DNA of 25,954 nt from a virus. The notes beneath the pieces are model-generated. The model made no database searches, had not been told where the DNA came from, and worked only from the letters and a program-made list of their open reading frames with translations. Position 1 is the stretch's first letter, and each line of letters opens with the position of its first letter. Below are positions 1 to 20,887 of the stretch, piece by piece. Where the stretch lies: positions 1 through 25,954 of IMG/VR virus record IMGVR_UViG_3300048571_000220. One strand, 5' to 3'. The translations under genes were made by a program, and so were the position numbers.

Positions 1-72
1 TATAACATATATTTTTAATAATGTCAACCTTTTTTTAAAAAAAGATGCCTTTTATTTGAATATATTAAAAAA
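1..72 (-). repeat. 72-base direct repeat carrying a leftward promoter (copy 1, cut by window edge)
   Basis: Bases 1-72 are identical to 22711-22782. Read on the minus strand, the repeat begins with the U-tract of a terminator, passes an A/T palindrome of seven T and seven A flanked by C and G (29-44, possible UP element) and reaches a perfect -35 TTGACA (plus bases 22-27). The matching -10 box would start at base 4 and run off the window; only TATA of it is visible, but copy 2 shows TATACT. A leftward gene is therefore expected just outside the left edge. The repeat may extend further left than can be seen. Confidence 0.85.
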
Positions 73-90
73 TATCCTAAAATAGGATAT
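72..90 (-). terminator. Intrinsic terminator for leftward transcript
   Basis: The inverted repeat ATATCCT (72-78) / AGGATAT (84-90), with loop AAAAT, is followed on the minus strand by five U (plus bases 67-71). It sits exactly at the edge of the 72-base repeat, whose U-tract it uses. Nothing with coding potential lies between it and the leftward promoter at 184-193, so it probably ends a short non-coding RNA. Confidence 0.6.
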
Positions 91-178
91 TCAAGAAATT
101 TTATATTATCAAATAAATTAACTAAAAAGGGTTTTTTGTCATACCAGGAGTGGTATTGTGTCTGTAGAATTAACTACA
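72..178 (-). ncRNA. Candidate small non-coding RNA, leftward, with CUCC loop
   Basis: The extended -10 box TGTTATAAT on the minus strand (plus 184-192) would start a transcript near 177. That RNA would hold a 5' hairpin (TGTAG-TTAATT-CTACA, plus 163-178), a second hairpin with a six-pair stem and loop CUCC (ATACCA/TGGTAT, plus 141-156), a short A/U stretch and the terminator at 72-90, about 105 nt in all. There is no usable reading frame with a ribosome site. The loop exposes ACUCCU, which is complementary to AGGAGU-type Shine-Dalgarno sites. Structure and signals are visible; the RNA itself and any target are inferred. The hairpin at 163-178 could instead be an operator. Confidence 0.45.
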
Positions 179-383: not shown

Positions 384-412
384 TTGACTTTCTTTAAATT
401 TTATGTTATAAT
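384..412 (+). promoter_or_regulatory. Consensus sigma-70-type promoter of the replication operon
   Basis: TTGACT (384-389), a 17-base spacer and TATAAT (407-412), with TG at 404-405 giving an extended -10 element. Transcription should start near 419 and enter the leader described next. It is the strongest promoter in the window by consensus and the only one in front of the initiator and helicase genes. Confidence 0.85.
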
Positions 413-463
413 ATATCTTGTATCAAATTCAGAAAAGAATTAAAAATCTAGCCGTAGGAAGCT

Positions 464-499
464 ATGATGAAAGATTGGAAAAAGACACTATTGAATTAA
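464..499 (+). CDS. Leader peptide of attenuator (MMKDWKKTLLN)
   Basis: This is an 11-codon reading frame between the promoter at 384-412 and the terminator hairpin at 531-559. AGGA at 456-459 serves the second ATG (467) at good spacing, so the peptide may be only 10 residues. It contains one Trp and three Lys codons ahead of codons that form strand 1 of a folding switch (487-492). Its stop codon TAA (497-499) touches the start of strand 2 (498-506). The position, the ribosome site and the overlap with the alternative hairpins suggest a translated regulatory peptide rather than a functional protein. Confidence 0.5.
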   Translation: MMKDWKKTLLN

Positions 500-559
500 G
501 AATAGTAAATTCCTATAATCAATTTTTCGTCACTATTCTTAGCTGAGTAGTGTTTTTTT
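487..559 (+). promoter_or_regulatory. Transcription attenuator with alternative hairpins 1:2, 2:3 and 3:4
   Basis: Four strands can pair in exclusive ways. Strand 1 ACTATT (487-492) pairs with AATAGT (501-506). Strand 2 AAGAATAGT (498-506) pairs perfectly over nine bases with ACTATTCTT (532-540). Strand 3 CACTATTC (531-538) pairs over eight bases with GAGTAGTG (545-552), leaving loop TTAGCT, and is followed by seven T (553-559). The last is an intrinsic terminator and the 2:3 pairing destroys it. This is the layout of a ribosome-controlled attenuator. The initiator gene starts 39 bases beyond the U-tract. Confidence 0.65.
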
Positions 560-597: not shown

Positions 598-1323
598 ATG
601 AATAGGGGTTTTTTAAAACTGCAAAGAAGAATATTGGATTGGGAATGGTATACTGACGTAAACACTAAATCTGTATTTATTCATTTATTACTAAAAGCAA
701 ATGTTAAAGAAAGTAGATTTCATGGGCACGAAATACCAATCGGAAGTTGTGTCATTGGCAGGAATGCTTTGAGTCAACAATTAGGAATTAGTGAAAGCCA
801 AGTACGAACAGCTCTTTTGAAATTAGAGAAATCAGGAGAAATCACAAAGAAAGCGACCAACAGATTTACCATCATAAATATCGCCAATTACAAGGAATAC
901 AACAATTCAGGAGCATCACTTCCGCCAACAAGTAACCAACAAGTGGCCAACGAACAACCAACAAGTAACCAACAAGTGGCCACATCTAAAGAATTTAAGA
1001 AGTTAAGAAGTAAAGAAGTAAAGAAAAAAGATAATTTAGAAGAGGCGGATTTGCTTTTTGAAGAAATGAAAGAAATACTTTACAAATATTATCCAAATTC
1101 TTCAAATAAATTAAATACAACAACAACAAAAAAAAAGTTGAAAACAAAATTAAGTGAAAAAGAATTCATAATCAAAGGATTAAATAATTATTTAAAAGAA
1201 TCGAAAAATAAAGGAACAGAATTAACGTTCATAAAAGGTTTAACAACTTTTTTGAATCAGGAGACTTACTTAGATTATCAAGAAACAAATATTAAAGAAA
1301 GGTATGAATTAGCATATTGGTAA
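598..1323 (+). CDS. Phage replication initiator, winged-helix type
   Basis: This is a 241-residue protein that probably binds the phage origin and loads the helicase encoded next. Residues 1-105 resemble the N-terminal winged-helix domain of phage replisome-organiser/DnaD-like proteins: a start around RGFLKLQRRILDWEWY, a helix-turn-helix near 56-80 (LSQQLGISESQVRTALLKLEKSG) and a wing near 85-98. Residues 110-130 are an 11-residue repeat (PTSNQQVANEQ) encoded by DNA iterons. The C-terminal part (150-241) is helical and not diagnostic. ATG 598 is preceded by AAAGGAGGG (587-594); an in-frame GTG at 550 lies inside the terminator and is rejected. Gene order (initiator then DnaB) supports the call; the precise family is uncertain. 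Confidence 0.75.
   Translation: MNRGFLKLQRRILDWEWYTDVNTKSVFIHLLLKANVKESRFHGHEIPIGSCVIGRNALSQQLGISESQVRTALLKLEKSGEITKKATNRFTIINIANYKEYNNSGASLPPTSNQQVANEQPTSNQQVATSKEFKKLRSKEVKKKDNLEEADLLFEEMKEILYKYYPNSSNKLNTTTTKKKLKTKLSEKEFIIKGLNNYLKESKNKGTELTFIKGLTTFLNQETYLDYQETNIKERYELAYW
925..979 (+). repeat. Five tandem 11-base iterons, candidate replication origin
   Basis: Units start at 925, 936, 947, 958 and 969: CCAACAAGTAA, CCAACAAGTGG, CCAACGAACAA, CCAACAAGTAA, CCAACAAGTGG. An 11-base period places every site on the same face of the helix. A purine-rich stretch with an 8-base period (about 995-1027, AAGAAGT units) follows, and the surroundings are very AT-rich. Iterons plus an unwinding region inside the initiator gene match the plan of lambda ori inside gene O. 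Function is inferred. Confidence 0.6.
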
Positions 1324-1355: not shown

Positions 1356-2594
1356 ATGAACAACAATCTAGCAAATCAAATCGCTGAAGTCACAATATTG
1401 ACAGGTGTAATGCACAATAATAACAATATTAATAAATTTGAATATTTTACAGAAGAATATTTTTCGCAAAATTATCTGAAGGCAATATTTTTAGAAATGT
1501 TAAATTTACATAAAAATAAAAAAGAAATAAATTTTTTAAGTTTGAGTGTAAATTTAAAAAAAGAAGTAATCGAAGACTTCGCGGAACAAATATCAGATAT
1601 TTCTCAAGCAATTGATACCAATGAATTTGTTTCGGTTGTAGAAGAATTGTTTGTAAAAAGAGAAGTCAGAAAAAAAATAATAGAGATAAATTCAAAAATT
1701 GCGGATGTATCGTTGAATGAAATCGAAGAAGATATTAATAAACTAGATTTTTTCATGAAACAAAAATCAAACTCAGGAATTGAAACCTACGATGAACAAA
1801 TTCACAATTTTGAAAAACACTTGTTTAGTGACGAACAAATGAACTTTAAAGCAACAGGATTTAATAAATTCGACAATCACGTAAAATTGCGAGATGGCGA
1901 CACGTACATAGTAGCGGCTGCTACCGGTATCGGTAAAAGTACGTTTACGCAAGCGATGTCAATTGAATTGGCGAAAAAGGGTGGAAAAGGAGTTTTATTT
2001 TCGTTAGAAATGTCCAAAAATGTAATTTTAAAAAAACAGGTTGCAAATTTACTTGGTGTAAATTACGATGAAATTGATAAAAATCATAAATTTAGAAATT
2101 CTCAATTAAATGAAAATATCAAACTAGCTGTAAATGAATTAAAGCAGAAAAAGCAACAAATTCACGTAATTGATACTTTTGATATTCCAATCGAAAAAGT
2201 AAAAATAATTTCAAGGGATTTGAAGAAAAAAAACGAACTAGACTTTTTGGTGATTGACCAAATCGGGCACATTTCAACGCACGTGAAATCTGATAAAATG
2301 GCTAAAATGCATTTGCTTTCTTGGGAGTTCAGAAAATTAGCACACGAGTTGCAAATACCAATTATTATACTTTGCCAATTGAATCGGGGTGTAGAAACAG
2401 AAACGCCTGGAATTCATCATATTGCTGAAAGTAGTGATTTGGCCAGAGACGCCAGCGGAGTGATTTTGCTCTCATCAGAAAGAGATGATCCAAATGCTGT
2501 TTTGGATGTAACAATTGTAAAAAATCGTTACGGTAGCAATGGTAAGATTGCATATGCAAAAGAATTCGCAAAAACAAGAATACTAGAAATGTAA
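1356..2594 (+). CDS. DnaB-type replicative DNA helicase
   Basis: This 412-residue hexameric helicase unwinds DNA ahead of the phage replication fork using ATP. Residues 1-100 match the helical DnaB N-terminal domain. The RecA-like core starts near 165. Walker A is AAATGIGKST (187-196; the first Gly of the motif is Ala, as in many DnaB proteins), followed by VLFSLEMS (213-220). Walker B is FLVIDQ (297-302). LCQLNRGVE (339-347) carries the sensor Gln, DLARDASGVI follows at 361-370, and KNRYGSNG (389-396) is the arginine-finger region. It is slightly shorter than cellular DnaB (about 450-470). ATG 1356 follows AAAGGAG, 32 bases after the initiator, so both genes are probably co-transcribed. No separate loader gene is visible. 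Confidence 0.93.
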   Translation: MNNNLANQIAEVTILTGVMHNNNNINKFEYFTEEYFSQNYLKAIFLEMLNLHKNKKEINFLSLSVNLKKEVIEDFAEQISDISQAIDTNEFVSVVEELFVKREVRKKIIEINSKIADVSLNEIEEDINKLDFFMKQKSNSGIETYDEQIHNFEKHLFSDEQMNFKATGFNKFDNHVKLRDGDTYIVAAATGIGKSTFTQAMSIELAKKGGKGVLFSLEMSKNVILKKQVANLLGVNYDEIDKNHKFRNSQLNENIKLAVNELKQKKQQIHVIDTFDIPIEKVKIISRDLKKKNELDFLVIDQIGHISTHVKSDKMAKMHLLSWEFRKLAHELQIPIIILCQLNRGVETETPGIHHIAESSDLARDASGVILLSSERDDPNAVLDVTIVKNRYGSNGKIAYAKEFAKTRILEM

Positions 2595-3473: not shown

Positions 3474-3502
3474 TTGACAAGGAAAGTAATTAATTATATA
3501 AT
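3474..3502 (+). promoter_or_regulatory. Perfect sigma-70-type promoter for accessory gene
   Basis: TTGACA (3474-3479), a 17-base spacer and TATAAT (3497-3502) match the consensus at all twelve positions. The start should be near G3509 (transcript begins GAGC). The 75-base leader holds a small stem GTTAA-AAA-TTAAC just before the ribosome site. Such a promoter would be active in the host without any phage factor. Confidence 0.88.
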
Positions 3503-3584: not shown

Positions 3585-3956
3585 ATGAAAAGAAAAAATA
3601 TGAAAAACAATAAATACAATATCAACTTAAATGAATTTAAAAAATTACTAATAAACAGAGTTACACTTTTCGGCGCAACTAAAGACCTAAATACTTTAAG
3701 CGCATTTACATTATTAAATAAAAAAAGCAAATCGCCAATTATAAATTTTATAAAATTCTTATTTTATTCAGAGTTTAAAAAAATAAAATTCTTAAAAGAT
3801 TGCGGATTTGCGCACGAGCAAATATTATATGATAAAGAAGGTAATAAATTAGATATTGAAGAATTTAATTCTAGGCCTGACGATGAAGTTGGCTGCATGT
3901 GTGAATATAAAGTAATAAATATGTTATACAAATCGTCGTGCAAAAAATATGAATAA
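3585..3956 (+). CDS. Hypothetical protein, single-gene transcription unit
   Basis: This 123-residue, Lys/Asn-rich protein matches no family I recognise. It is predicted to be mainly helical, with a cluster of Cys residues near the C-terminus (GCMCEY at 105-110 and a Cys in the final tail). AAGGAG lies 12 bases before the first ATG (3585); a second ATG at 3600 is an alternative start. The gene has its own consensus promoter (3474-3502) and its own terminator (3952-3978), so it is an independent cassette, as expected of a lysogeny-expressed moron. Confidence 0.65.
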   Translation: MKRKNMKNNKYNINLNEFKKLLINRVTLFGATKDLNTLSAFTLLNKKSKSPIINFIKFLFYSEFKKIKFLKDCGFAHEQILYDKEGNKLDIEEFNSRPDDEVGCMCEYKVINMLYKSSCKKYE

Positions 3957-20563: not shown

Positions 20564-20872
20564 ATGGCTGCAGATAGTACTACCTTAATAGTATCTAGTA
20601 TTTCAATTTATACTATTGTTCGTTTTTCGATATTTTTGATTCCACTTGTTTTAAAATGGAATGGGTCGAAGGGCGAAGAATTGGTTTTAAAAAATGAAGT
20701 GTCTAGAATCATTTTAAGCGTTGAAAAATTGACAGATGTGATGGAAACAACTTCACGCGAAACTTTAGAGCAACGAAAAGAAATATTCGTGAAACTTAAA
20801 GCTCATGATGAAAAAATAGAATATATTGAACGCGATATCGAACGATTGATGAATAATAAAAAAGACTATTAA
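20564..20872 (+). CDS. XhlA-like membrane-anchored lysis protein candidate
   Basis: This 102-residue protein has one N-terminal membrane segment (about 8-30) and a long charged coiled-coil tail (about 38-100, with KLTDVMETTSRETLEQRKE and HDEKIEYIERDIERL). That layout recalls XhlA/hemolysin-type small lysis proteins found next to endolysins, although there the membrane segment is usually C-terminal. The start lies two bases after the previous stop with only a weak ribosome site, so translation is probably coupled. It is the last gene of the rightward transcript. Confidence 0.55.
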   Translation: MAADSTTLIVSSISIYTIVRFSIFLIPLVLKWNGSKGEELVLKNEVSRIILSVEKLTDVMETTSRETLEQRKEIFVKLKAHDEKIEYIERDIERLMNNKKDY

Positions 20873-20881
20873 TTAGTCTTT
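20861..20881. terminator. Bidirectional terminator between convergent operons
   Basis: AAAGACTA (20861-20868) / TAGTCTTT (20874-20881), with loop TTAAT, is flanked by T-rich sequence on the right and A-rich on the left, so it works on both strands. The stop codon of the rightward gene (20870-20872) lies in the loop. It ends the late transcript and the leftward early transcript. Confidence 0.85.
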
Positions 20882-20887
20882 TCTTTT

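Follow-up and report, generated by a model that had tools for sequence, protein, structure and literature searches.

Amino-acid operons and resistance operons are the known settings of ribosome-mediated transcription attenuation. The leader described here precedes the replication genes of an AT-rich uncharacterised phage (IMG/VR virus record IMGVR_UViG_3300048571_000220; the whole stretch of 25,954 bases was analysed and is referred to as the window) and resembles several described systems. Like the E. coli trp leader, it has a short open reading frame (ORF) with strand 1 in its last codons and a stop codon abutting strand 2, a 2:3 antiterminator, a 3:4 terminator followed by a U run, and a ribosome-free RNA that is predicted to terminate. 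With mef(E)/mel and erm(K) it shares a very short, here putative, leader peptide, an intrinsic terminator and an anti-attenuator that would form upon stalling (PMC4335068); with Tn916, the location in a mobile element and an operon limited by terminators and, presumably, raised by slowed translation (PMC9154091, PMC11658703); with Inc18/pT181, a replication initiator gene whose leader holds a putative transcription attenuator (PMC4981023); and with lambdoid tL/tR and HK022 put, terminators situated soon after divergent early promoters (PMC11658703).

There are also differences. Unlike the trp leader, the phage leader has a weak 1:2 helix, a possible 1:4 helix and a further helix, A, over the start codons; it contains no run of regulatory codons, and the genes downstream are rep and dnaB, not genes of amino-acid metabolism. 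Its predicted working principle is like that of the trp attenuator, but two defining features of the amino-acid operon class are lacking. In contrast to mef(E)/mel and erm(K), the peptide MMKDWKKTLLN has no MRLR-type stall motif of the kind tabulated in PMC4335068, no resistance gene follows, and the leader is shorter (141 nt to the end of the terminator, versus a 327-base 5' region; PMC4335068). The Tn916 attenuator is found at tet(M), where a cis-acting RNA, canT, antiterminates (PMC9154091, PMC11658703), and the Inc18/pT181 attenuators are switched by antisense RNA, for which no convincing promoter was seen in the phage leader. Unlike in lambdoid phages, no nut site or antitermination protein was recognised, and an alternative antiterminator fold is built into the leader itself. 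What is new is the setting, that of phage replication genes, and the fifth helix. Our search of the open-access literature, the coverage of which is incomplete, retrieved no case of a ribosome-mediated attenuator ahead of phage replication genes.

The window has the appearance of a small tailed phage genome that is almost complete, and no exact terminal repeat was present in its 25,954 bases. The first gene of the rightward operon (598-1323, plus strand, Shine-Dalgarno sequence AAAGGAGGG) encodes a DnaD-like helicase loader or replication initiation protein, rep (phrog_2514, E 6.8e-27; phrog_270, E 2.8e-19), and is followed by a gene for a DnaB-like replicative helicase (1356-2594, plus strand; PF03796, E 3e-35; phrog_19, E 1.6e-61). 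Other products include a large terminase, a tape measure protein and an amidase endolysin, and the right end carries, on the minus strand, genes for SSB, an exonuclease and RecT. A bidirectional terminator (20860-20882) separates the convergent rightward and leftward operons, and a perfect consensus promoter (TTGACA-17-TATAAT, 3474-3502) stands ahead of a function-unassigned gene (3585-3956). G+C near the leader is about 26%. Between the terminator and rep lies a second short frame, MFQKCFKKLKEGQ (560-601), which has no Shine-Dalgarno sequence, contains the repeated ATGTTTCAAAA, and ends in a TGA that overlaps the rep start codon (ATGA).

A reading of the sequence alone (hereafter the sequence-only reading) had placed ahead of rep a consensus promoter, an 11-codon frame with a ribosome site, and four strands forming a terminator and its alternatives. 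All of these elements were found again. The promoter (384-412, plus strand) reads TTGACT-17-TATAAT with TGT ahead of the -10 box, matches 11 of the 12 consensus positions, ranks among the best five in the left half of the window, and places the RNA start at about 419. The candidate leader ORF (464-499, plus strand), which encodes MMKDWKKTLLN, agrees letter for letter with what had been claimed, from ATG464 to the TAA at 497-499, and is preceded by a candidate Shine-Dalgarno sequence, AGGA (456-459, plus strand), 4 nt from ATG464 and 7 nt from ATG467; this is weaker than the AAGGAG of other genes of the phage. As described, strand 1 (487-492) lies within the peptide codons and the stop codon meets strand 2 (498-506) at position 498. 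Strand 3 (531-540), strand 4, which is the 3' arm of the terminator (545-552), and a TTTTTTT run (553-559) follow on the same plus strand.

The three helices of the sequence-only reading were recovered by folding, with two more beside them. Strands 1 and 2 pair as 487-492/501-506 (-3.1 kcal/mol). Strands 2 and 3 form nine Watson-Crick pairs (498-506/532-540, -5.3 kcal/mol; -7.8 kcal/mol when extended to 496-506/532-542). Strands 3 and 4 form eight pairs including one U-G (531-538/545-552, -8.8 kcal/mol) and are followed by the seven T; this hairpin was indeed the strongest terminator in a relaxed scan of the window. The strands had been said to pair exclusively. Yet, strand 1 also pairs with strand 4 (486-492 with 546-552), and this 1:4 helix is compatible with 2:3. 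Together, 1:4 and 2:3 make up the minimum-free-energy structure of the finished RNA, one long stem with a 25-nt loop whose arms (479-506 and 532-559, 28 nt each, plus strand) are 82% complementary. Stacked on 2:3, helix 1:4 sets a stem right before the U run, and it re-forms a terminator over a barrier of about 2 kcal/mol, so that 2:3 on its own does not remove termination, contrary to what had been proposed. Pairing of 2 with 3 would allow readthrough only when strand 1 is covered, because a free strand 1 zips with strand 4. Helix A, the fifth helix and one overlooked in the sequence-only reading, joins the start codons and codons 2-5 (465-478) to 519-532 (both plus strand), a segment within the 2:3 loop. 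It consists of 14 pairs (-10.9 kcal/mol alone, -15.6 kcal/mol with 1:2; duplex p 0.02), occludes the start of the leader ORF and cannot coexist with 2:3; both 1:2 and 3:4 can form alongside it.

The effect of a ribosome was modelled by masking the RNA around the first base of the P-site codon, 13 bases on its 5' side and 15 on its 3' side. In the ribosome-free nascent RNA, 1:2 was present with a probability of 0.96-0.99 up to base 552, together with helix A; the barrier from A plus 1:2 to 3:4 was 1.8 kcal/mol, and that to 2:3 about 21 kcal/mol. With P sites at 464-470, strand 1 stayed free and 1:4 plus 2:3 formed. With P sites at 473-482, 2:3 was the main structure until strand 4 emerged (0.67-0.99 with the RNA end at 545; 0.67-0.97 for P sites 476-482, which correspond to codons 5-7). 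From P site 485 onwards, the stop codon included, 2:3 was abolished, reaching zero at the stop. These values suggest a narrow response, in which the operon is predicted to stay off unless a ribosome is held near codons 5-8 (Trp5-Thr8). The ribosome logic of the sequence-only reading, with 2:3 upon a stall within the ORF and termination with a ribosome at the stop codon or with none, thus emerged from the folding as a kinetic and not an equilibrium property. With strand 1 masked, 3:4 prevails over 2:3 at equilibrium (0.93-0.97), and the switch therefore depends on kinetics. Escape from 2:3 to 3:4 in the stalled state has a barrier of 8.8-10.2 kcal/mol, and by a rough rate estimate the 2:3 trap would last longer than the polymerase needs to cross the U run. 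For a ribosome sitting on the stop codon, other long-range pairings limited 3:4 to just 0.37 at equilibrium.

That the rep leader carries a transcription attenuator or a terminator of some kind is likely. On the more specific question we lean, tentatively and at slightly less than even confidence, towards a default-off transcription attenuator of rep and dnaB that is switched by translation of the 11-codon ORF. In RNA without a ribosome, helix A and 1:2 would form during synthesis and block 2:3, leaving 3:4 free to form and to cause termination at 553-559. A ribosome finishing the ORF would cover strands 1 and 2, again giving 3:4. A ribosome held with its P site at about Trp5-Lys7 would cover both the 5' arm of helix A and strand 1, and strand 2 would then pair with strand 3 before strand 4 is made, 1:4 being impossible; with 2:3 formed and 1:4 barred, RNA polymerase would continue into rep. 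This scheme supposes that the leader ORF is translated, that stalling occurs and that the switch is used by the phage. The order and spacing of promoter, ORF with its Shine-Dalgarno sequence, strands, U run and rep gene would argue for it.

As to what may hold the ribosome, the sequence-only reading had suggested that the phage could sense translation stress or charged tRNA. The codon content of the leader does not support the sensing of a particular charged tRNA: MMKDWKKTLLN contains one Trp and three Lys, the Lys content of the genome being 8.8%, and there is no run of control codons, just one Lys pair and one Leu pair, Lys and Leu being the commonest residues in this phage. Amino-acid-specific sensing was rejected on this ground. 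No known stall motif was recognised in the peptide. Near strand 1 lie the codons AAG and CTA, which the phage uses rarely (10% of Lys and 8% of Leu codons, respectively) and which could slow ribosomes; we offer this as a suggestion only. The cause of a stall would presumably be slow translation in general and not the shortage of one amino acid.

To estimate how readily such an arrangement arises by chance, we shuffled 419-525 3000 times with the terminator left intact. An antiterminator of 9 bp or more appeared in 0.5% of these shuffles, and the complete layout of 1:2, 2:3 and an ORF with its stop codon in none of the 3000. Folding z-scores were -5.85 for 479-559 and -3.5 for 419-559, and the fold of 464-532 had a p value of 0.007. 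The layout had been described before the tests were designed, which makes these p values somewhat generous. An ORF led by a Shine-Dalgarno sequence and ending near strand 2 was found in 7% (ATG only) to 12% of shuffles in a separate test; on its own, the leader ORF is weak evidence (p 0.07-0.12).

We considered the possibility that the hairpin is an ordinary early terminator belonging to a pair placed after divergent early promoters. It would be leaky, or else relieved by an antitermination factor or an RNA (of the lambda N/nut or HK022 put kind), and would set the level of rep transcription, the ORF being incidental. This explanation is doubtful but serious. In lambda and HK022, early terminators that antitermination relieves are an established arrangement (PMC11658703), the leader ORF lies within chance expectation, and two terminator-like sites occur in 1-600 where 0.02 were expected. 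The second of these early terminators belongs to the leftward leader, behind two leftward promoters akin to the rightward one (64-91, minus strand; hairpin at plus-strand coordinates 73-89). It reads AATATCCTA-TTT-TAGGATATT followed by T, i.e. a TAGGATA hairpin with a T run (-8.9 kcal/mol for the extended hairpin), and it precedes every leftward gene and the left end of the contig; RecT would come after it if the genome is circular or permuted. No ORF with a Shine-Dalgarno sequence is present in the leftward leader, which makes a mechanism independent of any peptide conceivable. By analogy with lambdoid antitermination, this pairing of early terminators is the best argument for the chief rival. 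A plain terminator does not account for helices 2:3, 1:2 and A, which are additional and mutually exclusive. Furthermore, every 12-mer of the leader was confined to it within the window, so that no shared nut-like site was seen, and no antitermination protein was recognised among genes of which many have no assigned function.

The divergent promoter region has other features of its own. Three sister promoters (165-192, 299-326 and 401-431), one rightward and two leftward, have TGnTATAATATAT and a similar start region in common, the minus-strand motifs of the leftward pair beginning at 326 and 192. The palindromes TGTAGTTAATTCTACA and AGTGAAATTCACT sit on the leftward start sites and look like repressor operators. 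On the plus strand at 146-190, a hairpin with an SD-like loop (ATACCA-GGAG-TGGTAT) is followed by a short ORF, VSVELTTYIL (158-190). Within the rep leader itself there is a promoter-like site (491-519, TTGAAT-17-TATAAT, 10/12), the RNA of which would start just ahead of the terminator hairpin and bypass the leader ORF.

The inverted repeat might instead act as DNA, as an operator or an origin feature, or represent an unused duplicated hairpin, its resemblance to an attenuator being a by-product. A single tandem duplication of one hairpin can yield 1:2, 2:3, 3:4 and 1:4 in one event, so that the pieces of the four-strand pattern are not independent evidence, and the palindromes at the nearby leftward start sites are in keeping with a role as DNA. 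We nevertheless regard this explanation as unlikely: the second hairpin has its seven-T tail exactly where a terminator needs one, terminator-like sites are in excess in the window (7, versus a shuffle mean of about 1.3), and a duplication does not account for helix A. Control by an RNA acting in trans, either a counter-transcript or a short phage RNA that would drive 3:4 by pairing with the leader (as in the plasmids pIP501/pT181 or in P4-type immunity), is very improbable, since, although leader terminators are known to control replication initiators (PMC4981023) and leader-pairing RNAs of phages and satellites are mentioned in PMC7567579, the best promoter on the minus strand of 430-760 matched only 8/12 positions, with at most 20 looser sites among the matches listed and a genome-wide minus-strand background of about 15 sites at 8/12 or better per 330 bases, and the complementarity of the leftward RNA to the leader was not above that of shuffles (p 0.25 and 0.95).

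Relatives of rep were found, in genome and viral contigs, at about 87 loci, 80 of them from an alignment-based search, with at most 56% identity over part of the length. None of the loci inspected shared the leader; upstream of rep there was instead a different gene or a spacer of unrelated sequence. That such distant relatives do not have the leader refutes nothing. One 32-kb contig had rep matches at both ends (L022 and L023, 41% and 56% identity), perhaps the parts of a single gene cut where a circular sequence was opened. Searches with DnaB, TerL, the 9110 protein and RecT yielded nothing, no close relative came from any search, and the exact terminator sequence had no match in viral contigs. 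Among phage records there was no DNA match, and protein matches were below 40% identity among the matches listed; TerL gave one match (29%) in 398 bacterial genomes. No Rfam leader or riboswitch reached its gathering score in the window, and at E values up to 5 just eukaryotic RNA families appeared, far below their gathering scores.

Returning to the translation-dependent attenuator, its fullest form would be a sensor of translation speed that gates the replication operon and includes the fifth helix at the start codons. It would be off when ribosomes are absent or fast, and would turn on only if they slow midway through the ORF. We hold this to be possible but rather improbable. If real, the device would tie the decision of the phage to replicate to the translation state of its host.
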